Below, piece after piece: positions 13,828 through 48,987 of a stretch of DNA of 64,000 bases. A program made the position numbers and the translations under genes. This DNA is from Cyclobacteriaceae bacterium. Lineage in GTDB: Bacteria; Bacteroidota; Bacteroidia; Cytophagales; Cyclobacteriaceae. Below the pieces are notes generated by a model. It worked only from the letters and a program-made list of their open reading frames with translations. It was not told the origin of the DNA and made no database searches. Numbering within the stretch: the first letter of the stretch is position 1; each line of letters starts with the position of its first letter. The stretch covers positions 124,001 through 188,000 of the forward strand of contig JAEUUG010000004.1 in assembly GCA_016787565.1 (NCBI GenBank), read 5' to 3'.

Positions 13828-16800
13828 ATGCGTAAAATGAGGTTATTCATCTTTTTACTGGTTTTTCTTGGCACATCGGTTCAGGTGTTGGCACAGGATA
13901 AAAAACTCGACAAGACACTTGCTAAAGTAGACGGCTACTATAATGCCGGTAGTTTTACAAAGGCCCTGAGTACGCTGAATAAATTTAAAGCAGGTGTTTT
14001 GAAGACTGAAAACCGTGATAAATACATGGTTGACTTTTATATCCGTGAAGCGCGGATCAACCTTGGCTCGGGTGTGCTGGTTGGTTTTGAGACAAGCTTG
14101 AACAATGCCCTGAATACAAGCTTGACGGCCTTTGGCGATAATAGTACGAGCTATGCAACCGTGTTATTGGATGTTGCAAACATTTACAATGAGTATGGAA
14201 ATTTTAGAATCAGTCGGGAGTATACCGAGAAGGCTGAGACTTTATTGGGAAAAACAAACCAGATGACCGATGAAATAAAAGGAAAGATTGTGCTCATCAA
14301 AGCCGAAGCCATGATTGGTCAGGGTTTTTGTAAAGATGCGATCGAGTTACTGAGTAGTGCGGATAAGTATTTTGCCGGACGCGCTACGGAGAAGGAAACT
14401 ATTGTAGAGAATAATGAAATCAAAACCAGACGCATTCCCGAGAATGAAATCTACCAACGCTTCAATGATTATGCAAAGCTTAAAACGCTTACCGGAAGTG
14501 CGTATGCTCAAATGGGAAGAATTGCTATTCCGGGTGCAACAACAGATAATCCTGATGTGGATGTTGCCTTTGGCGAATTGCGTAATTGGGTAAAGGGCAA
14601 GAAACGATTTTTAGGTGAGACCAGTCTGGCCGAAGTGGAATACCGCTATCTCTGGGCAAAAGCTTTGGTGGATAACGGCTTATCGAAAGCACTGCCATCG
14701 GATCTTGCTTTTGATGGAACACTGAACGATCTGAAAAAGCATACTAATCCAACGAATGAGCTGGCGCATAATCTGTATTTAAGTTATCTGGGTTATTTGT
14801 TGAAGACAGACAACCGGGCAAGATACCTCAACACCAAACTTGAATATGAAAAGGTAATCAACAAGTACTATCCAAAAACAAGTTTACATCGCATTAACCT
14901 GCGCGCTGTTGAATTTGACTCCAAGCTTTCGAAAGACAAAACAAAGGATCTCGAAAATGACGCCCTCGGTGTGCTCAACTCCAAGTCACTTCCTAAAAAC
15001 TACAAGACAACTGCCAAAGTTTTAGAATTTCTGTATACCATAGCGGTCTCTGAAAAGCGGTACACCAATGCAGAATCATACCTCAATCAGTTAGCCGATA
15101 TAAAAAGAGAATTGTGCGGTGAAAATTCTCCGGAGTATCACCTGGCCCGGGTACACCTGGCGAATTTATACCTCGACTACACCAATAAAATAGATGAGGC
15201 AGGTAAGATTTATGAGGAGAGTTACTACAAGGTTTTAACCAAACAAATGGGTGAACAGCATATTGATCTGGTGGACATCCTGAATCATATTGCACAGTGG
15301 TACGAACTGACCGATAAATATGCGCTTGCAGGGAAAGCACTAAAAGAGGGTAAAGATGCAGCTAACTACAAATTTCAGAATACGGACATCCTGCTTGGAA
15401 TGGAACTGGATAACATTGCCAAGTTGCAACTTAAGTTGGGTCAATATGAAGAAGCCGAGGCAAATATCACTGAAGCGATTCGGATCATTCAATTAAAGGA
15501 GGCAAAAGCCTATACAGAACAACGTCCTGCTTTGATCAGTGCCCTGGAGACCCAGGCAAGGCTTTACGGTATCCAGGGTTTGTTTGACGAAGCAGAAGCT
15601 AACCTTGACCGTACACGAATTTTAATCAAGAATGCCGAGAAAAAGATTGGAGATGAACTATCATCAGCAAAGGAACTTTCCAGTCTGCTGATTCAACTCG
15701 GTCGGTATTCGGATGCTGATAAGCTATTGAATATTCTTATCCCGGAGTATGAGAAACTATTTGGCCTGAATTCCATACGCCTGATTGATCCCTTGGTGGA
15801 CAAAGGGAAAATACTGCTGGCCAGAGGAGACTATACCGAAGCCGAGAAGATTGCTATACGAGCAAACGCTATTGCTGTGAATACCTATAGCGATAATTCC
15901 ACTAAAACTGCGCCTACTCAACGCCTCCTCAGTGATATCTACTATACACTGGGTGATTATGAAAAAGCAGAGGAGAACATTGTAAAAGCGCTGGCTAGTC
16001 AGGAGAAGCAATTTGGACGTAACCATATCGAAGTCGCTAAGTCACTTTCTCAACTTGCCCTGATCAAATTTTACCGTGGTGATAATAAGAAGGTTGTAGA
16101 AAAACTCATGATTGAATCGCGCGATATCATGGGAGCTAAGTTAACGAAGACGAATCCACAGTATGCGGAGATTTTAAAGAACGTTGCCGTGCTCTATATC
16201 TCCGAAAAGAAATATGACATTGCCTTTAATTCATTAACCGTAGCTGAACAAATCTGGCGCGCCAAAACCGGTAAGAAAAACAGCATCAACGCAGCGAGCA
16301 TATTTACGCTTACGGGCGATGTTTACTACCAACAAAAGAATTATAAGAAGGCGGAAGAGTTTTATAACCAGGCAAGAAAAATCTATCTCGATAACTTCAA
16401 TAAGAATCACCCAGAGTATGTAAAAGTCTTATCGAAACTGGCGAAGGTTTATTACATGCAGAAAAATTACAAGGAGGCCAAAAAGAATATTGAAGAAGCT
16501 CTGGGTAACTATGAACAGTTTATTAAAGATTTCTTCCCGGCATTGAGTGAGCGCCAGAAGGCAAAATACTGGAACACGATCAAGGGTGACTTTGAATTTT
16601 ACAATACCCTTGCCTTTGGCAACCTGGATGACTTTAAGGATCTGGCAGGAAAAGTTTACAACTACCAGTTACTCACCAAGGCCTTGTTATTGAGTTCATC
16701 GATCAAGATTCGTGAGCGGATCATGAATAGTACGGACGAGGACTTGAAAAATCAATATAATACATGGCTTCAGAAAAAGGAGCAGCTAACACTTGCTATT

Positions 16801-18084
16801 TCTATGAGTTCGCAACAACTTGCAGAAAATGAAATAGACCCGGCAGCGCTTCATCAGGAGGTAGAGCGACTTGAAAAAATTCTGAGTGACCAATCGGAAT
16901 TATTTCAGCAGAATTTTGACACAAGAAGGATTGCATTTGAAGATGTAAAAAAATCACTCAAGCCAAATGAGGTAGCCATGGAAATGGTGCGGTATCGAAA
17001 TTTTGATCATGTGCTAACAGATTCTGTTATTTATGCGGCCTTGTATCTGCGCAGTGATTTCGCAAAGCCTAAGGCAGTTTTATTAAAGCATGGGCAAAAG
17101 ATGGAAACGCGTTACTTCAAGTTCTACCGGAATGCCATTACCGGTAAGATTGATGATCCATACTCGTATACTATTTTCTGGGAACCCATCCAGCGCGAGG
17201 TTGGTCAGTCTTCAACGCTGTACCTCTCTCCTGATGGTATTTATAATCAGATTAATCTGGAAGCGATTCCTACTCCTGATGGCCGCTTTGTCATAGACAA
17301 CTCGAATATTGTATTGGTCAGCAACACAAAGGATTTGTATTTGCGGAGAGTTCAAACACGAAGCGAATCAAAAAATAATACGGCATCTATGTTTGGAAAC
17401 CCTTCTTTTTATCTTACTGCTTCGGCAGATCAGTCGGTTTCACCCTTACCAGGAACTGAAAAGGAAGTCGAGCAACTTCAATTCATGTTGAAGCAGAAAG
17501 GATGGACCACAACACAGTACATCGAGAAGACGGCAACGGAAGAAAAAGTAAAGGAGTTAAGTAGTCCGAAGATTTTCCACATCGCTACACATGGATTGTA
17601 TAGACCTAACCAAACCATAACACTGGAGCAGGAAATGGAGGGAAACGAAGCAGTGCTAACACAAAATCCATTGCTGCGAACGGGCTTATTACTGCGTGGT
17701 GCAGGTGATCTGCTGGAGAAAACGGATTACAACTACAATATGGAAAGTGGTATCCTCACGGCTTATGAAGCCATGAGCCTGAATCTGGATAAAACGGATT
17801 TGGTCGTGTTGAGTGCCTGTGAGACTGGCCTTGGTGATATGGAGGCGGGGGAAGGTGTCTTTGGACTGCAACGAGCTTTTTTGGTGGCGGGAGCAAAAGT
17901 ACTGATCATGAGTATGTTTAAAGTGGATGATGACGCCACACAAAAACTTATGCTAAAGTTTTACCAAAAGTGGCTGAACGGCAATAATCTTCGTCAAAGT
18001 TTTATTGATGCGAAAAAGGAGCTTCGTGTTGATTATCCTGAACCCATTTATTGGGGAGCCTTTATGATGATCGGACTTGAATGA
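13828..18084 (+). CDS. Exported TPR-repeat protein with C-terminal CHAT peptidase domain
   Basis: A 1418-residue protein beginning with a clear signal peptide (MRKMRLFIFLLVFLGTSVQVLAQ), so it is exported. The central part is a long helical array of tetratricopeptide-like repeats, for example YEEAEANITEAIRI, GDYEKAEENIVKAL, KNYKKAEEFYNQARKIY and KNYKEAKKNIEEAL. The C-terminal 300 residues form a CHAT (caspase-HetF-associated-with-TPR) domain with both presumed catalytic residues: His1255 in IFHIATHGLY and Cys1331 in VVLSACETGLGD, ending PIYWGAFMMIGL. CHAT domains are clan CD cysteine peptidase relatives; an intact dyad suggests activity, but substrate and trigger are unknown. It stands alone between mutB and a terminator, with no gasdermin-like or sensor gene beside it. 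Confidence 0.9.
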   Translation: MRKMRLFIFLLVFLGTSVQVLAQDKKLDKTLAKVDGYYNAGSFTKALSTLNKFKAGVLKTENRDKYMVDFYIREARINLGSGVLVGFETSLNNALNTSLTAFGDNSTSYATVLLDVANIYNEYGNFRISREYTEKAETLLGKTNQMTDEIKGKIVLIKAEAMIGQGFCKDAIELLSSADKYFAGRATEKETIVENNEIKTRRIPENEIYQRFNDYAKLKTLTGSAYAQMGRIAIPGATTDNPDVDVAFGELRNWVKGKKRFLGETSLAEVEYRYLWAKALVDNGLSKALPSDLAFDGTLNDLKKHTNPTNELAHNLYLSYLGYLLKTDNRARYLNTKLEYEKVINKYYPKTSLHRINLRAVEFDSKLSKDKTKDLENDALGVLNSKSLPKNYKTTAKVLEFLYTIAVSEKRYTNAESYLNQLADIKRELCGENSPEYHLARVHLANLYLDYTNKIDEAGKIYEESYYKVLTKQMGEQHIDLVDILNHIAQWYELTDKYALAGKALKEGKDAANYKFQNTDILLGMELDNIAKLQLKLGQYEEAEANITEAIRIIQLKEAKAYTEQRPALISALETQARLYGIQGLFDEAEANLDRTRILIKNAEKKIGDELSSAKELSSLLIQLGRYSDADKLLNILIPEYEKLFGLNSIRLIDPLVDKGKILLARGDYTEAEKIAIRANAIAVNTYSDNSTKTAPTQRLLSDIYYTLGDYEKAEENIVKALASQEKQFGRNHIEVAKSLSQLALIKFYRGDNKKVVEKLMIESRDIMGAKLTKTNPQYAEILKNVAVLYISEKKYDIAFNSLTVAEQIWRAKTGKKNSINAASIFTLTGDVYYQQKNYKKAEEFYNQARKIYLDNFNKNHPEYVKVLSKLAKVYYMQKNYKEAKKNIEEALGNYEQFIKDFFPALSERQKAKYWNTIKGDFEFYNTLAFGNLDDFKDLAGKVYNYQLLTKALLLSSSIKIRERIMNSTDEDLKNQYNTWLQKKEQLTLAISMSSQQLAENEIDPAALHQEVERLEKILSDQSELFQQNFDTRRIAFEDVKKSLKPNEVAMEMVRYRNFDHVLTDSVIYAALYLRSDFAKPKAVLLKHGQKMETRYFKFYRNAITGKIDDPYSYTIFWEPIQREVGQSSTLYLSPDGIYNQINLEAIPTPDGRFVIDNSNIVLVSNTKDLYLRRVQTRSESKNNTASMFGNPSFYLTASADQSVSPLPGTEKEVEQLQFMLKQKGWTTTQYIEKTATEEKVKELSSPKIFHIATHGLYRPNQTITLEQEMEGNEAVLTQNPLLRTGLLLRGAGDLLEKTDYNYNMESGILTAYEAMSLNLDKTDLVVLSACETGLGDMEAGEGVFGLQRAFLVAGAKVLIMSMFKVDDDATQKLMLKFYQKWLNGNNLRQSFIDAKKELRVDYPEPIYWGAFMMIGLE

Positions 18085-18103: not shown

Positions 18104-18140
18104 AAATGCTCCGGATCTTTTGAATCCAGAGCATTTTTTT
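18104..18140 (+). terminator. Intrinsic terminator after the CHAT gene
   Basis: AAATGCTC pairs with GAGCATTT, with GGAT/ATCC inside after one mismatch and a seven-base loop, followed by a run of T. It lies 20 bases after the CHAT-protein stop and before the convergent UspA stop. Confidence 0.8.
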
Positions 18141-18159: not shown

Positions 18160-18903
18160 TTAAACCAGGTTGAGAACTGGAATATTCGTTTCTGTTAGCA
18201 ACTGCTCTACTAATTGTCCGCCTGATTGAAGTTCATTCTTTCCGTGGTCCCTGATCATGAGGGTAAGTAGGTCAATTTTTTTATCAGCTGCATAGTTGTT
18301 AATAGCGGCAACAAAATCATCGCTTTTCAGTGATACATATTCATGTTTAATGTGATCCAGATAATATTCGAGTGGTCCTTCGGATTCGTCCTTTGGCAAT
18401 ACATCTTCGCGTGTTACATGAAGAACATGTACCATGGCATCACAGGCCTGTGCCAAGTTCCACAAGGGTTCAAGTGCTGATGAGTCTTTGATACTATGGA
18501 AGTCGTTGGCATATACAATGTTTCGGATGGAAGGTGTTTCATTGTTACTGGGAATAATGAGCACCGGACAATTCATCAGTTTAACGAGCGCTTTCACCAA
18601 AGTATTTCCGGTTAGTCCGATGACGACAAGAGACGGATGCTTTTCATTTATATTTTTTTGAATTTCTTCGAGCAGGCCTCCGGTAGCGATGGTAAGTGAA
18701 TAGGGTATCCTGCAGTTCTTGAGAAATTCGAATTCGAATTTTTCAAATAGCTTTTGTATTTCTTCTTTGGTTGATTTTTCGGCCGGAGTAGAAACATGAA
18801 GCAACTCCATTCTAATGGATTGATCTTTGAAAACCCTTTCAATGTAGGTTAAGGCTTTTCCGGATGCATGCTGAAAATCGATGGGGACGAGGATAGTTTT
18901 CAT
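18160..18903 (-). CDS. Universal stress protein (UspA-like, tandem-length)
   Basis: Cytoplasmic nucleotide-binding stress protein family. The N-terminus MKTILVPIDFQHASGKALTY is the canonical Usp beginning, followed by MELLHVS and the pattern SLVVIGLTGNTLVKALVKLMNCPVLIIP, where the usual G-2x-G-9x-G(S/T) nucleotide site appears only in degenerate form. A second half (RNIVYANDFHSIKDSSALEPLWNLAQA...) makes this a double Usp of about 247 residues. I start at ATG 18903; an ATG four codons upstream (18915) is possible. It lies 152 bases after the DUF2490 gene on the same strand, so it may belong to the permease/kinase/receiver cluster or be expressed separately. Confidence 0.85.
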   Translation of the reverse strand: MKTILVPIDFQHASGKALTYIERVFKDQSIRMELLHVSTPAEKSTKEEIQKLFEKFEFEFLKNCRIPYSLTIATGGLLEEIQKNINEKHPSLVVIGLTGNTLVKALVKLMNCPVLIIPSNNETPSIRNIVYANDFHSIKDSSALEPLWNLAQACDAMVHVLHVTREDVLPKDESEGPLEYYLDHIKHEYVSLKSDDFVAAINNYAADKKIDLLTLMIRDHGKNELQSGGQLVEQLLTETNIPVLNLV

Positions 18904-19055
18904 GGCCTTTATCATTTGATTCTACTCTAAGGTAATCCATCACGATGTTGTGCTACCTAATCTTGATCATGCTAATACCTGATTAATATCAGAAAATCAG
19001 ATTGATTGTGGCTTCAATCGTTTGTAGAAAGTAAATACGGTTACGAAGAATGAAA

Positions 19056-19805
19056 TTATTTTTCTGATACGGCACGTTTCCGGAAACTGAATTTCTGCGT
19101 AATCCAGAGTACAAGGGTGTGATTTTCTATGTATTGATCCGTGCCTGTCATGACAAACCGATTCATATAGCCAACTTGATATTGTATCCTTGGTTTTTGC
19201 AAGCCCACCATTACATAAATCCGATTTTGATTAAACGACATTCCAGAAATATTTTCCCCGAAATTAAAGAGAATCTCATCCGACAAGCTGATGAAGGGAA
19301 TATTCTCTTTGTTGCCAACTGTTGGGAATGTTTTGCGAATGCTTCCCATGAAGCGTATACGATTTACAAAAGTGTATTTTTCGATGGGTTCTCCCTGCGA
19401 AACGTTTTGAATGAATCGCCCATCATACCGTGTTCGCTGAGTAAAGGATAGTGTTTTAAAAATCGGTAACGTGAATTGAACCTGTCCCCACGGTCGGTTT
19501 TCATTGCGGTGTAAATCAGTATTACTATTGCTGATGGGTAGCCACGCATGTGCATAGCCTGCTGTAATGTTGATTTTTTTGATGGTGTAGGTCAGGCCTG
19601 TTCGTACAATAAAAAAGCCATCGGGTACATAGTGCGTGTCATTCCACCAGGAATAATGCGCGCTAATTTCTGTTGACGTCATGTAGCCAAACCAATATTG
19701 TGATTGCTGCGTGACTGATCGTTGAGAAGAGGCATCATATGTAAGCAGTACTAAAATAATGAACAAAATCGTGGTGTGTATTTTTTTTCTATAGTATGTT
19801 TTCAT
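19056..19805 (-). CDS. DUF2490 family outer-membrane protein
   Basis: A 249-residue protein with a signal peptide (TTILFIILVLLTYDASSQ) followed by alternating beta-strand sequence rich in Trp, Tyr and Arg: QSQYWFGYMTSTEI, GFFIVRTGLTYTI, INITAGYAHAWLP, FTQRTRYDGRFIQN, NRIRFMGSIRKTFP, RIYVMVGLQKPRIQYQVGYMNRF. The terminal Phe of WITQKFSF and the strand pattern suit a small outer-membrane barrel. The family function is not established. It follows the receiver gene by 25 bases, so it is probably co-transcribed with the DASS permease, kinase and receiver, and could supply an outer-membrane pore for the same substrate (inference). Confidence 0.8.
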   Translation of the reverse strand: MKTYYRKKIHTTILFIILVLLTYDASSQRSVTQQSQYWFGYMTSTEISAHYSWWNDTHYVPDGFFIVRTGLTYTIKKINITAGYAHAWLPISNSNTDLHRNENRPWGQVQFTLPIFKTLSFTQRTRYDGRFIQNVSQGEPIEKYTFVNRIRFMGSIRKTFPTVGNKENIPFISLSDEILFNFGENISGMSFNQNRIYVMVGLQKPRIQYQVGYMNRFVMTGTDQYIENHTLVLWITQKFSFRKRAVSEK

Positions 19806-19830
19806 GGCTTTCTAGCGATAGCAGCCGGCA

Positions 19831-20313
19831 TTATGTTGTTTTTCTAAGGCGTTCAAAAAGAATTGCTTTGTCGAGTTGATCCAGATACGGTTCATAGGGA
19901 ATGCCCGTGTCCAGAATAAATTCCGTGATGAGTTGTTTTACATAGTGAATGAGTTGATCCGATTTCCAGGGCTTTTCCAGGTAGCGATCAATGGCAGCGT
20001 TGTTTATGGCCTGAATGGTATCCTGATGCGTAGCCAGACCGGTAAGCAGAATTTTTTTGGTATGCGGAAACCGGTGATCCTTACTAACGTCAATGAGGAA
20101 TTCAACGCCACTTTTTACGGGCATGACGTGATCGGAGATAAGTAACCCCACGTAATCGCCCTGCGTCAGAATTGTCTCCATAACCTCGGCTGCTTCCTTA
20201 GCGGATTCACACTCCTCAATCATAAAGGTATCTTCCAGTGGTTCGAGGTCTTTAGCAATGGCTTCCAGCACTTCGCGTTGATCTTCAATTAGAATGATGT
20301 TGAGCTTTTCCAT
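19831..20313 (-). CDS. Stand-alone receiver-domain response regulator
   Basis: A 160-residue CheY-like receiver without an output domain. Acidic pocket residues are at IEDQ (positions 10-11), the phospho-acceptor is Asp61 in LLISDHVMP, the signalling Thr is Thr91 in ILLTGLA, and the conserved Lys is Lys114 in YLEKPW. The roughly 35 residues after the receiver core form a helical tail, too small for DNA binding. The gene starts one base after the kinase stop (TAATATG), so the pair is translationally linked. With no output domain it must act by protein-protein contact, for example on the permease, the kinase or a relay. Confidence 0.93.
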   Translation of the reverse strand: MEKLNIILIEDQREVLEAIAKDLEPLEDTFMIEECESAKEAAEVMETILTQGDYVGLLISDHVMPVKSGVEFLIDVSKDHRFPHTKKILLTGLATHQDTIQAINNAAIDRYLEKPWKSDQLIHYVKQLITEFILDTGIPYEPYLDQLDKAILFERLRKTT

Positions 20314-20314
20314 A

Positions 20315-21643
20315 TTATTTTTTTGGAAGTGTAACTAAAAAACTTGTTTCTCCGGGCTTACTGGTAACGGCAATGGAACCCCGGTAGCTGCCAATAATTT
20401 TTTTAACGATAGATAAACCCAGTCCAAGGCCGAACGAAAGTCCGTTTACTTTGGTGGTGAAGCTTGGTTGAAAAATTTTATCCATGATTTCTGCTGCAAT
20501 GCCTGTTCCGTTATCGGTAATGGAAACAGTATAAAAGGCGACATCACAACTTATTCTGAATATGAGTGTTGGCTCATTAACCTGAGCGAGTTTCATGCTT
20601 TCGCAGGCGTTTTTGATCAGGTTAATCCATACCTGAACAAAGTCACCGGGATTTGCCAACAACACGCCTTCGGTATCTGCATGGATAACAACATTGACAT
20701 CCTGTACCAGGTTCTTGGTAAGGGTAAGGGCTTCGCGAATAGTTTGGTGAATACTGGTTTCTACCAGAATGGTTTTTTGTGCATTGCCCAGTTCGCGCAC
20801 GGATCGTACAACGTGGGCAGCGTGACTGGCTGCAATTTTCATATCGTGGAGGACAATGCCTGCATCGGTAACGAGTTTAATAATTTCGAAATCACGAAGT
20901 CCTTTTTTGACCAGGCTGTCTAGTTGCACTTCACTCAATGAAGTTTTAGCCAATTGCTTCGCCAGTTTGGGTGAGACACCGTACTTCTCTTCGAAACTTC
21001 TGCTTTTCTTGCGAATAGAAGCACTTGAAAGTGTTTGTCCTTCTTCAAGGTTGGTTGCAAAAAGATGTTGCAGTTCTTTTGATTTCAGGTAGTCACGCAG
21101 TGAATTGGCAAGCCATTCGGTATTGCGGTCTAATACCCCGATAGCATTATTGAGTTCATGTGCAATGCCCGCTGCGAGTTGGCCTAGGGTGGCCATTTTT
21201 TCGGTTTCATAAAGTTTCTTAACAGCTGCCTGTCGTTCACGACTCATGGTTTGGGCGAGTAGCTGACGCAAATAAATTTCATGAACAATAATGGGAAAGA
21301 AGTGTGCTGCAAAATTGGGATCAGAATCTTTTTGATGTTGCTCGATATAGGCAACCTTCGTATCGGCTTCAGCTCTAACGGTTAGAAAACTTTTTTGATC
21401 TTCACTAAAGAAACTATAAACACCCACAAACATATCTTTTTCACTACGAAAGACTTCAAAATCCTCACCGCTGGCATCTTTAATGTAGCCTGCCATTTCA
21501 CCATCTAAAATGAGATATAGCTTTTCATTATGCTCGTCTTCCCGTAACAGTACTTCTCCTTTCTTCAGACTCACAAACTTTGTTGGGTCTGAAAAGTAAA
21601 CTGCCTTCAGTCTTGCTATTCCCTTGTTTGATTCAATACTCAT
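20315..21643 (-). CDS. Soluble histidine kinase with N-terminal cyclic-nucleotide-binding-like domain
   Basis: A 442-residue sensor kinase without membrane segments. Residues 20-105 form a Crp-like beta-roll (GEVLLREDEHNEKLYLILDGEMAGY). The H-box is MATLGQLAAGIAHELNNAIG with phospho-acceptor His162. A helical insertion of about 120 residues follows, then the HATPase domain: N-box WINLIKNACESM, G1 ITDNGTGIAAEIMDKIF, F-box PSFTTK and G2 GLGLGLSIVKKI. The start codon overlaps the permease stop as ATGA (21640-21643), which implies translational coupling to the transporter. The receiver gene follows after one base. The beta-roll may bind a nucleotide or another ligand; a canonical phosphate-binding cassette is not obvious. 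Confidence 0.92.
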   Translation of the reverse strand: MSIESNKGIARLKAVYFSDPTKFVSLKKGEVLLREDEHNEKLYLILDGEMAGYIKDASGEDFEVFRSEKDMFVGVYSFFSEDQKSFLTVRAEADTKVAYIEQHQKDSDPNFAAHFFPIIVHEIYLRQLLAQTMSRERQAAVKKLYETEKMATLGQLAAGIAHELNNAIGVLDRNTEWLANSLRDYLKSKELQHLFATNLEEGQTLSSASIRKKSRSFEEKYGVSPKLAKQLAKTSLSEVQLDSLVKKGLRDFEIIKLVTDAGIVLHDMKIAASHAAHVVRSVRELGNAQKTILVETSIHQTIREALTLTKNLVQDVNVVIHADTEGVLLANPGDFVQVWINLIKNACESMKLAQVNEPTLIFRISCDVAFYTVSITDNGTGIAAEIMDKIFQPSFTTKVNGLSFGLGLGLSIVKKIIGSYRGSIAVTSKPGETSFLVTLPKK

Positions 21644-23088
21644 GTGAGGAAGTTGATGTATTGCAAGATAATCATCAGTATGATGACAAAAATTAATCCG
21701 ATGAGGCCAATCATGACACCTATTTTCGACATGTCATTGGTGTAAATCTCTCCCGTGGCGTGTGCCAATGCGTTTGGTGGGGTACTGATCGGCAGGGACA
21801 TACCAAGTGAAATGGCGATGGTGGTGCCCAGTACAATAAGCTGACTTCCACCAACATTCTCAAGACCTGCTACGGTTGTTCCCAAAGAGGCCAGTAGAGG
21901 AAGGATTAAGTTTGCTGTGGCTGTATTGGACATAAAATTGGCCATCACCAGACCAATACTTGCGGCTGCAAGAATGACTACATAGGGAGAGAATGATTCG
22001 AAAGGAATACTCTCAATAACATGCTGGGCCAGTCCGGTTTTTTCAAGTGCGAGTCCCAGTGCAATACCGCCTGATACCAGCCATAGAACATCCCAACTGA
22101 TGTTCTTTAAGTCTTCTTTATTAATTATTCCCAGGCTAAGGAAAACACCAACTGGAATCATGGCGACTACGTACGCATTCATACCATGTATAAAATCGAA
22201 AAGCCACAGAAAAATAGTAACGATAAAAGTAATGTATACCAGAATGGCTTTAGGCGTTGTAAGAAAAGTTCCAGTTATGGATAACCGAATAGTTTTTGTT
22301 TTTGCCGGAAAAAATATCAGAAGAAGTACCCAGGATAGTATGAGCATGACGATGACAAAAGGAACTCCAAAACTCATCCATTTTCCAAACGTCATCGTTG
22401 CTCCGGTAATATATTTCAGTGCAATAGCATTGGGAGGCGTACCAATCGGTGTACCGATTCCTCCAATATTCGCTGCGATGGGAATGCTTAAAATGAATGC
22501 TGTTTTTGCTTTGTCTCCTGCTGGAAATATTTTCAGTACAGGAATCAGAATAGAAAGCATCATCGCAGTGGTTGCGGTGTTGCTCATGAACATAGAGAAA
22601 AAGGACGTAATGATCATGAGTCCCAATAATACCCACTTGGGGTTTTCTCCGAAGCGATGCAGGAGTACCCGCGCAATATTTTGATCGAGGCGGTATTTCG
22701 TAGCAGCCATGGCCAGAAAGAAACCTCCGAGAAAAAGAAGAATTACCGGTGAGGCCAACGTACTCATGATTTCTTTATGTGACATAACTACACCAAAATT
22801 CTCCCCTTCGCCACGGGCAGGGTATAGGCTGCTATCGGATAGAAAGACAAGCTCAAGCACAATGATGAGTATTGAAGTGGCGTAGATCGGTACGGGTTCC
22901 AGTATCCAAAAGATGGCGGCAAAAACAAAAAGCGCGATGACGCGGTGTTCAATAACCGTAAGGTTTTGTATAGGAAACCAGGTTTTGGGAATGAGTAGGA
23001 TGATTACCGGAGTAATAATGGCGATACTTAACTTGATTCGATCGGTTTTTTTGGATGTTGTATTCACGACTTGCGTACTCTCGTACAA
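21640..23088 (-). CDS. SLC13/DASS-family sodium-coupled anion permease
   Basis: A 482-residue polytopic inner-membrane carrier of the divalent anion:sodium symporter family (di- or tricarboxylate, or sulfate). Two inverted repeats carry the family's binding motifs: SNTATTAMML with IGTPPNAIAL in the first half, and MSNTATANLILP with ISTPPNALAHATG in the second. Both Ser-Asn-Thr motifs are intact, consistent with dicarboxylate carriers such as VcINDY. It is first in a tight cluster with a cNMP-domain histidine kinase (4-base overlap) and a receiver, suggesting transport and sensing are coupled. Substrate cannot be fixed from sequence; succinate-type dicarboxylates are a reasonable guess given the family. 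Confidence 0.93.
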   Translation of the reverse strand: MYESTQVVNTTSKKTDRIKLSIAIITPVIILLIPKTWFPIQNLTVIEHRVIALFVFAAIFWILEPVPIYATSILIIVLELVFLSDSSLYPARGEGENFGVVMSHKEIMSTLASPVILLFLGGFFLAMAATKYRLDQNIARVLLHRFGENPKWVLLGLMIITSFFSMFMSNTATTAMMLSILIPVLKIFPAGDKAKTAFILSIPIAANIGGIGTPIGTPPNAIALKYITGATMTFGKWMSFGVPFVIVMLILSWVLLLIFFPAKTKTIRLSITGTFLTTPKAILVYITFIVTIFLWLFDFIHGMNAYVVAMIPVGVFLSLGIINKEDLKNISWDVLWLVSGGIALGLALEKTGLAQHVIESIPFESFSPYVVILAAASIGLVMANFMSNTATANLILPLLASLGTTVAGLENVGGSQLIVLGTTIAISLGMSLPISTPPNALAHATGEIYTNDMSKIGVMIGLIGLIFVIILMIILQYINFLT

Positions 23089-23098
23089 TTGGTACCAC

Positions 23099-23106
23099 CA
23101 AACGTA
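23099..23106 (-). promoter_or_regulatory. Candidate -7 element for the DASS/kinase/receiver operon (TACGTTTG)
   Basis: The minus strand reads TACGTTTG, an exact match to the Bacteroidota -7 consensus TAnnTTTG, 10 bases upstream of the permease ATG. Transcription would begin only a few bases before the start codon. No good -33 TTG is seen at the normal spacing, so this is tentative. Confidence 0.4.
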
Positions 23107-23261: not shown

Positions 23262-23295
23262 AAATAAGGAGGCTGTCGTGTTACGACAGCCTCCT
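23262..23295 (-). terminator. Intrinsic terminator of the LPP20 lipoprotein operon
   Basis: Perfect 13-bp stem AGGAGGCTGTCGT / ACGACAGCCTCCT (23267-23279 with 23283-23295) around a GTT loop. On the minus strand it is followed by TTATTTTTAAG, so it terminates transcription from the lipoprotein gene ending at 23347. Confidence 0.85.
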
Positions 23296-23346: not shown

Positions 23347-23916
23347 TTAATTACCCATTTTTTCCATTTCCTTTTCGAAGGTTTCTTTGAACTTCTCGTA
23401 ATCATAATCAATTCTGAGGCGCTCATCTTTTGAGAGGCGTTCATTGTACGTGGCTACGAGTTCATCAGCGGAGAGTTCAATCGCAATATATGTTTTATAT
23501 GTACCTTGATCTGTCTTTACTAACTTTTCGCAGATGGTTTTTAAACCAGTTAATTTCTGATCAACAATTTCACGGTTTAGTTGCTCAAACCTTTCTTCTA
23601 CCTGCTCCTTATTGTTCATCTCTCGTGAGTTGGTGTAATTGTCGGTTACAGCTTTTACGGTAGTTTGAATGCTGGCAGCAAGTTCGGCACGCGCATTGGC
23701 TAATGCTTTCTTTTTGGAGGTCACTTGATCCTGGCTTTCACCGATGGAGTTGGCCCTGAAAAATTTATTGGTTGTGAAATAATCCGGGCCGGAGCATGGT
23801 ACTGTTATTTCGGTTTCGCCTTTTGGTATTTTTTCTTTGCCTTTACAGCCAAACATAAATACTCCTGCCAGCGCAACCAACATGAGTGAGGAATAAGTTA
23901 ACTTTTTCATATTCAT
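23347..23916 (-). CDS. LPP20-like lipoprotein
   Basis: A 189-residue predicted lipoprotein. The lipobox is LAGVFMFGC after a hydrophobic stretch, so lipidation is expected about 24 residues in. The mature part contains the LPP20-like pattern RANSIGESQDQVTSKKKALANARAELAASIQTTV (two adjacent segments), followed by a helical region rich in Glu and Lys. The upstream gene on the same strand has a related segment (GIGHSTKDAT...AKKSALDDLVSQIKV), so these look like paralogous domains in one operon (116-base gap). Members of this fold occur in envelope or flagellar lipoproteins; no specific role can be assigned. ATG 23916 and ATG 23910 are both usable. Confidence 0.75.
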   Translation of the reverse strand: MNMKKLTYSSLMLVALAGVFMFGCKGKEKIPKGETEITVPCSGPDYFTTNKFFRANSIGESQDQVTSKKKALANARAELAASIQTTVKAVTDNYTNSREMNNKEQVEERFEQLNREIVDQKLTGLKTICEKLVKTDQGTYKTYIAIELSADELVATYNERLSKDERLRIDYDYEKFKETFEKEMEKMGN

Positions 23917-24032: not shown

Positions 24033-25397
24033 TTATTGGAGAACTGTATTTAACAGCTCTTTTATTTTATCTTTTTCCAGACTTTCGAGTGCCTTATTAT
24101 ACGCATCAATGCTTGATTTATCGAAATCCAGTCCGTAGCCCTTAATCCGATCCAGTGTGGTGGCATAAATTTCTTTGCCTCCTTTTGCAGCGGTTACTTT
24201 AATGGTGCTCGTCAGGTAAGTAATGTAGATACTTCCGGATACGGATCCTTTTTCAGCGTCAGCCTGAACATCAAATAAAAGATCTGCATCACGTCTGTTG
24301 TCGGTAAATTCAAAACCATTATTCGCGAGTAGGTTTCGTAGTTTATTGCTGATCTGATCGTTACTCTTTTGATAGCCCAGACTTTTTTCGTTAGAGGTCA
24401 TATAAACAACTGGACGTTGAACTTTTAGGATGACCTGGGTCTGTGGAAGATGAAGTGTTTTTGCAATGAGAGCATAAATAGGAGAGGAGCTTGCCCCGCT
24501 CAGGGCATCAATATCAACTTTAACAACCACAGTCTGCTCGAGGTCGCGGGAACCGATTTTATTGATGAGAATTTGTGCCTGGCCCCGATCATCAGCTTTG
24601 TATGTTGGGAACACATCGCCTTCACCTTTTTCGAAACTGGCGGACAACGGCAATTGATTTGTGGATTGGTCGATATCTTTATAGAGTGCCTTGGCAATTA
24701 CCTGACGGTCACTTTGATTGATTCTTCGGTTGACCATAATTTCAGCAGGGTCGACTGTGAGTTGTATTCTATCCAATAGCGATTGAATGGAGGCATAAAT
24801 TTCATTAACCAAAAGGATTTCCTTCTCATCAATTGTTATGCGAATGGCTTCTCCCAAATATTTCTCCAGGCTTCTGAAGGCTTGAAAATAAAAGCTGATG
24901 GCCTGAAGCCGTTGATTTGCCTTTTCGGCTTCTCTTGCTTTCTTAAAATAATCACTTGCCAGCAGTGTGGCATTTCGTTTTTGTTCTTCTTTGATTTGTC
25001 TATAGCGTGAAATGGAAAGCCTGTAGTATACCCAATAGTTTCCTGCATCTTCCCAGGCGTCCACTAGTTCAAACTCCTCAATTTCATCCGCAGCAGTAGT
25101 TTGTATAATTTGTTCGTATTGTTCCTGCAGTTTTTTATTGACCTCGAGTTGACTCAGAACGGAAGTGCTCGAAATGTTAACTTTTATTTGGGATACAAGG
25201 TCATCTAACGCACTTTTTTTAGCTGCTTGGATATAGTTGTTGGTGGCATCTTTAGTGGAGTGGCCTATACCGGTGTAATACCCGTTCTGATAGGGTTGAT
25301 CTTTAAGCCATGCAGGCTTCAAAGCCTCCGGATCAGGCGGTAACACCTTGGGACTACAACTTGAGATGATCAGTAGGAGCGTAATAATTCGCTTCAC
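24033..25397 (-). CDS. LPP20-domain lipoprotein, larger paralog
   Basis: I start this gene at GTG 25397, giving VKRIITLLLIISSCSPKVLPP, a compact lipoprotein signal with the acylated Cys at about residue 15; an in-frame ATG at 25460 would place 21 extra residues before it. The N-terminal region has GYYTGIGHSTKDATNNYIQAAKK, the LPP20-type motif, then YWVYYRLSISRYRQIKEEQ, a helical middle and a C-terminal region (KLRNLLANNGFEFTDNRRDADLLFDV) resembling proteins that combine degenerate TPR-like helices with a FlgT/LPP20 fold. It leads the operon with the smaller LPP20 lipoprotein. Function is unknown; an envelope role is inferred from the lipobox. Confidence 0.75.
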   Translation of the reverse strand: MKRIITLLLIISSCSPKVLPPDPEALKPAWLKDQPYQNGYYTGIGHSTKDATNNYIQAAKKSALDDLVSQIKVNISSTSVLSQLEVNKKLQEQYEQIIQTTAADEIEEFELVDAWEDAGNYWVYYRLSISRYRQIKEEQKRNATLLASDYFKKAREAEKANQRLQAISFYFQAFRSLEKYLGEAIRITIDEKEILLVNEIYASIQSLLDRIQLTVDPAEIMVNRRINQSDRQVIAKALYKDIDQSTNQLPLSASFEKGEGDVFPTYKADDRGQAQILINKIGSRDLEQTVVVKVDIDALSGASSSPIYALIAKTLHLPQTQVILKVQRPVVYMTSNEKSLGYQKSNDQISNKLRNLLANNGFEFTDNRRDADLLFDVQADAEKGSVSGSIYITYLTSTIKVTAAKGGKEIYATTLDRIKGYGLDFDKSSIDAYNKALESLEKDKIKELLNTVLQ

Positions 25398-25531
25398 AAA
25401 ATAATCGTTTGATGGTTTCGTTGAGATATTATCCACATTCGTGCCAATCGTTTGAACCAAATCGTATTTGGAGAGGTTTCGAAATATGAGATTACAACAA
25501 ATTTATTAACTTTAATCAAAAGCTGAAGGAT

Positions 25532-47526: not shown

Positions 47527-48987
47527 TTATAAATTCAGATCCTCCAACAGGAACACGGCCAGCAGCCAGATGATAATAATGGATGCAACATTCAATAACA
47601 TTCCTGCCCGCATCATGTCTTTCATTTTAATATGACCACTCGCAAAGACAATGGCATTGGGTGGTGTTGAGATTGGAAACATAAAAGCACAACTGGCGGC
47701 AAAGGTTACCGGAAGTGCTAGCAGAATCGGGTTGATGTTTAAGCCTTCAGCGATGGCAAAGACTACCGGAACAAAGATGGTTACCAGTGCAACATTGCTC
47801 ATGAATTCGGTTAACACCACGGTAATGGTAATCAGGATGATGAGCAACGCCCAGAAGGGGAGATGACGCTGCATTGAAATGTAATCGCCAATGGATTTAA
47901 TGATTTCGGTTACTTCCATTCCTTTGGCAAGACAAATGCCACCACCAAAGAGAATTAAAATCCCCCAAGGTAAGCGCTTTGTATCCTCCCAGGTAAGCAG
48001 AAATTTATTCTCAGAAAGCTTAGTGGGTACCGTAAACATGAGCAAACCTCCGAACATGGCAATGTTCGTATCGTTAAAGACATCACTGTCAGCAAAGGTG
48101 TTTAGCAATCCCTGAAAAATCCAGAGGAAAGAAGTAATACTGAATACCACCAGCACTAATTTTTCTTCTTTTTTTATGTTGCCCAACTCTGCCAAACGGG
48201 TTCGAATCAAGCCGTCAGATCCCTCAATCTTTGGAAGCCGGTTTGGAAATAAAATTCGTGTAATCAGAAGGTATGTACTTGCAGTAATAAGTGCCGCTAC
48301 CGGCAATCCGATCATCATCCATTTTCCGAAGGTAATGTCGTGTTGATAGAATTGTTTTACAAAACCATCAAAGACTACGTTGGGTGGCGTACCGATTTTT
48401 GTTGCCATACCCCCAATACTGGCGGCATAGCCAATGCTGAGCATTAATCCCAGCGCGAAATAGTGTTCTCCTTTGCTGATGTGTGCACCGGCTTCTGAAG
48501 ATGGTTTTCTCAGTAGTGTTATCACAGAGGTAGCAATTGGCAACATCATCAAAGCTGTGGCTGTATTGCTGATCCACATGCTGATAATTCCTGTTGATAG
48601 CGTAAAGCCTAAAATAATTCCATTACCGGATGTTCCCGTTAGCCGGATCAGGTTGATGGCAAAGCGCTCGTGAAGCCTGTATTTTTCAAGTGCCAGGGCA
48701 ATCATAAAACCACCCATAAATAAAAAGACTGAAGGATTGGCATAGGGGGCAGTGGATGCTGAAATATTCATCACGCCCAGCGCAGGAAAAAGTATTAAGG
48801 GTAGCAAGGCTGATATGGCCACCGGTGCGGCTTCGCTTATCCACCAGGTGATCATCCATACACCAACAGCCAATACTTTATAGGCATCGGGTGAAATAAA
48901 ATCATTGGGCACCGTAACCAGGATGATGACAAAGAGTAATGGTCCAATAAAAAATCCAATTTGTTTACCAGTCAGCTTCACGTTCAA
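47527..48987 (-). CDS. Second SLC13/DASS-family anion permease
   Basis: A 486-residue polytopic carrier paralogous to the permease at 21640-23088. First-half motifs ISNTATALMMLP and IGTPPNVVFDG are intact; the second half reads MSNVALVTIFVP and ISTPPNAIVFASG, so the second Ser-Asn-Thr is Ser-Asn-Val, a substitution in the sodium/substrate site that may alter specificity. No sensor genes accompany this copy, in contrast to the other. Substrate unresolved (dicarboxylate, citrate or sulfate). The start ATG 48987 follows the RRM gene's terminator region. Confidence 0.9.
   Translation of the reverse strand: MNVKLTGKQIGFFIGPLLFVIILVTVPNDFISPDAYKVLAVGVWMITWWISEAAPVAISALLPLILFPALGVMNISASTAPYANPSVFLFMGGFMIALALEKYRLHERFAINLIRLTGTSGNGIILGFTLSTGIISMWISNTATALMMLPIATSVITLLRKPSSEAGAHISKGEHYFALGLMLSIGYAASIGGMATKIGTPPNVVFDGFVKQFYQHDITFGKWMMIGLPVAALITASTYLLITRILFPNRLPKIEGSDGLIRTRLAELGNIKKEEKLVLVVFSITSFLWIFQGLLNTFADSDVFNDTNIAMFGGLLMFTVPTKLSENKFLLTWEDTKRLPWGILILFGGGICLAKGMEVTEIIKSIGDYISMQRHLPFWALLIILITITVVLTEFMSNVALVTIFVPVVFAIAEGLNINPILLALPVTFAASCAFMFPISTPPNAIVFASGHIKMKDMMRAGMLLNVASIIIIWLLAVFLLEDLNL

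Follow-up and report, generated by a model that had tools for sequence, protein, structure and literature searches.

Side by side in the window, a 64,000-nucleotide stretch of a Cyclobacteriaceae contig, lie genes for a DASS-family permease, a soluble histidine kinase and a lone receiver, and we found that, as judged from their sequences, the three are intact proteins inherited as a unit across phyla. The trio suggests a dedicated, so far undescribed control of organic-acid uptake, for example of succinate. In most two-component systems the last component is a DNA-binding protein, and a domain search revealed no DNA-binding output anywhere in the trio. The reading we tentatively favor, at slightly less than an even chance, is a module for carboxylate import equipped with a soluble two-component pair of its own, in which the permease is the likely target of the phosphorylated receiver. 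If this is true, a transporter would be the dedicated output of a two-component system.

The features of the locus are listed in the table below. Open reading frames, Pfam searches and reading of the sequence placed all five genes on the minus strand and bore out their families and their spacings as given by the first-pass annotation: the DASS stop and the kinase ATG overlap in ATGA, one base separates the kinase TAA from the receiver ATG, and 25 bases lie between the receiver stop and the DUF2490 ATG. A gap of about 140 bases follows between DUF2490 and Usp. The DASS start had to be corrected, as the codon at 23106, where it had been placed, is TAC and the first in-frame start is a TTG at 23088; DASS relatives align from about residue 11–18. 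Given the hairpins upstream of DASS and after Usp, all five genes could form one transcript. Two LPP20-type lipoprotein genes (23347–23916 and 24033–25460, minus strand) are located upstream of the operon, and the terminator-like hairpin between them and DASS is a strong one. On the other side, a plus-strand gene (13828–18084) encodes a 1418-residue TPR-CHAT protein with a caspase-like peptidase domain, and its end is convergent to the Usp gene.

Table. Genes and terminator-like hairpins of the DASS locus, in window coordinates
Feature	Position	Strand	Size or structure	Evidence
DASS/SLC13-type permease	21640..23088	-	482 aa, TTG start	Pfam Na_sulph_symp 1.5e-45
Soluble histidine kinase	20315..21643	-	442 aa	cNMP-roll/HisKA/HATPase_c by Pfam
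Lone receiver	19831..20313	-	160 aa	Pfam Response_reg 1.6e-14
DUF2490 putative outer-membrane barrel (TC 1.B.81)	19056..19805	-	249 aa	Pfam 5.6e-29
Two-domain universal stress protein (Usp)	18160..18915	-	251 aa	Pfam Usp 2.7e-15
Intrinsic-terminator-like hairpin after Usp	18104..18136	-	14-bp stem + T tract	
Terminator-like hairpin of upstream gene, setting DASS operon apart	23267..23295	-	13-bp stem + T-rich tail	

A kinase scan over 84,980 genomes returned 80 loci, to which 10 were added from the window's own family. After three duplicate loci were taken out, profile scoring placed DASS, kinase and receiver side by side at about 66 distinct loci. The hosts are Flammeovirgaceae/Cyclobacteriaceae and other Bacteroidota, Balneolales, Kiritimatiellae/Verrucomicrobia, Planctomycetota and Acidimicrobiia, and they include the isolates Flexithrix dorotheae, Reichenbachiella versicolor and two Rhodohalobacter. 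Two gene orders were observed: most groups have DASS-kinase-receiver, and the Balneolales group has DASS-receiver-kinase. Recurrence in several phyla rules out a chance juxtaposition of the trio, and the conservation beyond close relatives on which the first-pass annotation had staked its proposal was found for this core, which supports a functional tie between DASS, kinase and receiver. The conserved unit does not extend to all five genes, as had been proposed: the three-gene core is general, while among trio loci DUF2490 occurs in four and Usp only in that of the window. We therefore rejected a conserved five-gene unit and limit any general statement to the trio.

All full-length kinases without an adjacent DASS in the kinase scan were located at contig ends. 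Starting instead from DASS, an independent search detected the subfamily in 26 genomes of the phylum, the window's included; the other loci, further Rhodothermia genomes among them, were all fully linked except one (G718). In that genome DASS and receiver adjoin and a full-length kinase (44% identity over residues 6–487) is located on a different contig, so all three genes are still kept there. When patristic distances were compared among the three gene trees for 52 loci, the correlation was 0.94 over all pairs and 0.73–0.88 within Cytophagales; the latter was reached by none of 2000 label permutations, and host kinship contributes to this agreement of the trees. Within the window's family, the kinase was present in 11 of 98 genomes and DASS in 15 of 98 at the thresholds used. 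Three genomes of this family (G060, G019 and G035) have a close DASS without kinase or receiver, and these DASS proteins are the sister clade of the linked Cytophagales DASS. Every other group shows the linkage, so the simpler history is that kinase and receiver were lost together here, and any other history for the kinase-less DASS is an alternative that is less simple.

The permease scored 273 bits with the NCBIfam DASS model TIGR00785 (cut-off 198.6) and matched VcINDY in PDB at 2.3e-37. Among 53 linked proteins, the SNT and TPPN motifs are invariant or nearly so: S169, N170 and T171 of the first SNT motif and S387 of the second are invariant, and N388 is conserved in at least 90%. The SNT motifs hold carboxylates in VcINDY (PMC7553777), and by its sequence the window DASS looks like an intact transporter. 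The linked subfamily shares with VcINDY and other DASS/SLC13 symporters the family, the fold and both SNT carboxylate motifs, but differs from VcINDY in that its TM2-TM3 loop is longer and a kinase and a receiver are dedicated to it. Some Balneolales DASS (L053, L076, L058 and L097) carry an insert of about 70 residues between TM2 and TM3, in the N-terminal third of the protein. It was considered as a feature tied to the kinase and rejected as a clade feature, occurring mostly in the clade linked to GTP-type PEP carboxykinase (PEPCK). At the N terminus, the kinase-less DASS proteins (L160, L161 and L162) have in common a basic stretch of about 30 extra residues, which the linked DASS proteins do not have. 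A second DASS-family transporter of the window (47527–48987, minus strand) is 34% identical to the first and has no kinase or receiver beside it; its first SNT motif is the usual one and the second reads SNV.

The kinase consists of a Crp-like beta-roll (about residues 1–110), a long helix, a HisKA domain with a helical insert of about 75 residues and a HATPase_c domain, and the structure model (mean pLDDT 84) shows the same elements. The predicted absence of a membrane segment was upheld (maximum 19-residue Kyte-Doolittle mean 1.34, no hydrophobic segment), as was the N-terminal Crp-like roll. The catalytic residues H162, N341/N345, D377-G381 and G405-G409 (N/G1/F/G2 boxes) are invariant in the alignment. 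In the phosphate-binding cassette for cyclic nucleotides the window kinase reads GVYSFFSEDQKS and its relatives mostly GLxSFxTGxxS; across this alignment the canonical Glu is absent and the Arg is not conserved. Since these canonical residues are missing, the label "cNMP-domain kinase" should not be read as cAMP-sensing. Sensing of cAMP was thus not supported by the residues, although the genome does hold class III cyclase-like genes, so that gene content gives no argument against it. NtcA is one of the solved structures related to the roll, and for that reason an NtcA-like 2-oxoglutarate pocket was also considered; it was rejected, as nothing in the Crp-like domain is invariant beyond G48, G74 and R126.

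Structure searches with the kinase and with the receiver retrieved ordinary kinases and ordinary receivers, respectively. The DASS-linked kinase core belongs to a wider kinase class, also seen on Beggiatoa/Thioploca-type contigs (L083, L089 and L104), where arrays of similar kinase cores and KPW-type receivers occur with no DASS. In Planctomycetota and Verrucomicrobia the kinases possess an extra N-terminal receiver-like domain with the C-terminal extension of the lone receivers. These fused domains are partly degenerate, several being without phosphorylation residues, and they form a clade of their own that the tree does not put within the lone receivers.

The receiver retains the phosphorylation residues D11, D61, T91 and K114, which are conserved in the alignment, the last three being invariant. 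Both Pfam and the structure model agreed with the first-pass annotation that it has no output domain. Its C terminus is extended by about 30 residues, which the model (pLDDT 91) folds into two helices; this extension is conserved across phyla, and generic receivers match the lone-receiver profile only as far as its start. The support for a probable phosphotransfer from kinase to receiver consists of the linkage and the tree correlation of 0.94.

An outer-membrane channel gene, DUF2490 or Porin_O_P, often follows the trio. The window DUF2490 protein scored 101.6 bits with PF10677 (cut-off 29.8), and this family occupies the same slot in the window, L020, L027 and L037; Porin_O_P takes that slot in L019, L044–L046, L048 and the Kiritimatiellae-type loci. 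This substitution in relatives supports the proposal that DUF2490 may serve as the outer-membrane partner. For Usp, which had been put forward as a downstream stress output, the picture is mixed: it is absent from the other trio loci, but an ortholog-like Usp gene is located directly upstream of DASS in two kinase-less loci, L161 and L162. These two proteins are 35–36% identical to the window Usp over the whole length, whereas the best paralog in the window's genome has an E value of only 1.5e-5. DUF2490 and Usp are thus lineage accessories. Among the kinase-less loci, L160 has the order DASS-Porin_O_P, L161 has Usp-DASS-Porin_O_P, and L162 has Usp-DASS-Porin_O_P-PEPCK.

PEPCK was found near the trio at 16 of 64 loci, compared with 0.18 expected at one gene per 4 Mb; with the Balneolales GTP-type clade counted once, the number is 7 (P about 1e-9). 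The enzyme is of the ATP type in Cyclobacteriaceae and Planctomycetota and of the GTP type in L020 and the Balneolales clade, in several geometries. In the planctomycete locus L070, PEPCK comes first, followed by one further gene, phosphofructokinase, the trio in the order DASS, kinase and receiver, and GAPDH. The window has no PEPCK beside its trio, and a copy is located about 485 kb away on the same contig. According to the Pfam assignments of 91 flanking genes, the remaining neighbors are diverse, with none recurrent besides PEPCK and porins. The proximity of PEPCK points to a probable C4-dicarboxylate uptake feeding gluconeogenesis. Together with the SNT motifs, these neighbors support import of an organic acid that would feed the oxaloacetate-PEP step; the identity of the substrate is what we infer from them.

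We propose that the channel (DUF2490 here, Porin_O_P elsewhere) would be the route across the outer membrane for a C4-dicarboxylate or similar acid, that DASS would import it together with sodium, and that the imported acid would feed the step from oxaloacetate to PEP. The kinase would read a cytosolic signal via its Crp-like domain, with the usual cAMP-binding residues missing, and phosphorylate the receiver. The phosphorylated receiver may then act on the permease, a post-translational gating of uptake, with possible feedback on the kinase. The permease is the most likely target of the receiver because it is the only partner constantly with the pair. We prefer to regard it as the target since the receiver has nothing else to act with, since a cytosolic sensor domain is already part of the kinase, and since in G718 the receiver stays by DASS with the kinase elsewhere. 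Furthermore, kinase-less relatives read Usp-DASS-porin-PEPCK, which indicates that the pair may depend on DASS and not the reverse. In the fully specified version of this proposal, the cue read by the soluble kinase would be a metabolite of the cytosol, and the lone receiver, once phosphorylated, would act on a DASS organic-acid symporter directly and gate it, across several phyla. This version is more doubtful than the general one, though we still give it a substantial chance.

Several considerations count against the permease being the target: comparison of linked with kinase-less DASS for a docking signature gave three weak positions, R133, L143 and M382; the PEPCK of the window is distant from its trio; lone receivers can act on distant partners; and an arrangement with the transporter as sensor fits the same genomics. 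This last arrangement, which the first-pass annotation named first, is the main rival and, though unlikely in our estimate, has to be taken seriously. The permease would be a membrane sensor or co-sensor, the soluble kinase would dock on DASS and read its occupancy or transport cycle, and the receiver would pass the signal on, via another regulator, to something farther away, for example PEPCK or porin expression, so that the system would work like DctA/DcuS or CbrA. It would account for a kinase that is without a membrane segment yet travels with a permease, and it has precedents: CbrA and CrbS fuse a transporter and a kinase, and DctA is a structural co-regulator of DcuS (PMC8307970). However, the receiver is without DNA-binding or enzymatic output and has no constant second partner, and the three weak positions in DASS count against this arrangement as well.

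Alternatively, the genes may be co-regulated neighbors without contact, the pair belonging to a general signalling network, for example as one branch of a larger relay or as a sink in it, and being placed with DASS in one operon for co-expression alone. Operons without DASS that contain the kinase core and a receiver (Beggiatoa-type, Kamptonema and Psychrobacter) form a larger class, and three genomes have DASS without the pair. We nevertheless consider this improbable, as the full-length Crp-type kinase did not occur without DASS in the one genome in which this was open to checking, and the linkage is kept in two gene orders with congruent trees. A main action of the receiver on the kinase, as feedback or adaptation, seems very improbable to us. 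Kinases with a fused receiver-like domain and its extension imply that such receivers may sit on the Crp-like domain; the extension is absent from generic receivers, and several fused domains have lost their phosphorylation residues. But the fused domain is a separate clade rather than a branch of the lone receivers, and the constant tie to DASS would be left unexplained.

Transporter-coupled two-component systems are already known, and the combination of a DASS permease, a soluble Crp-type kinase and a lone receiver is a variant of them, of which we found no description in the open-licence papers searched. The trio resembles the SLC5-STAC kinases CbrA and CrbS, in which a histidine kinase governing carbon use is linked to a sodium-coupled transporter. 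Here, however, the transporter, probably sodium-coupled as well, is an elevator-type DASS rather than SLC5, the polypeptides are separate and the receiver has no output domain; by Pfam the window kinase has only cNMP, HisKA and HATPase domains, and no STAC domain was found in it. The DctA/DcuS/DcuR system of E. coli is comparable in that a kinase and a response regulator work with a transporter of C4-dicarboxylates, the probable substrates here as well, but DcuS is a membrane protein with a periplasmic sensor and DcuR binds DNA, whereas here the kinase is soluble and the receiver output-less. In uropathogenic E. coli, the two-component genes kguSR are located beside the DASS carboxylate transporter C5038 (PMC5318444). 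Transcription of c5038 is activated there by KguR, a sigma-54 enhancer-binding protein, and no lone receiver is described (PMC5318444), in contrast to the window trio. Because an output-less pair stays with one permease across phyla and in two orders, experiments can directly ask whether a two-component system controls carbon uptake post-translationally; isolates such as those named above carry the trio. The locus also bears on DUF2490, which is listed as a putative porin family with function not established (PMC4827864). The window barrel is a member of these putative porins (TC 1.B.81) by Pfam, and its context suggests an organic-acid port, a concrete and testable function for the family.
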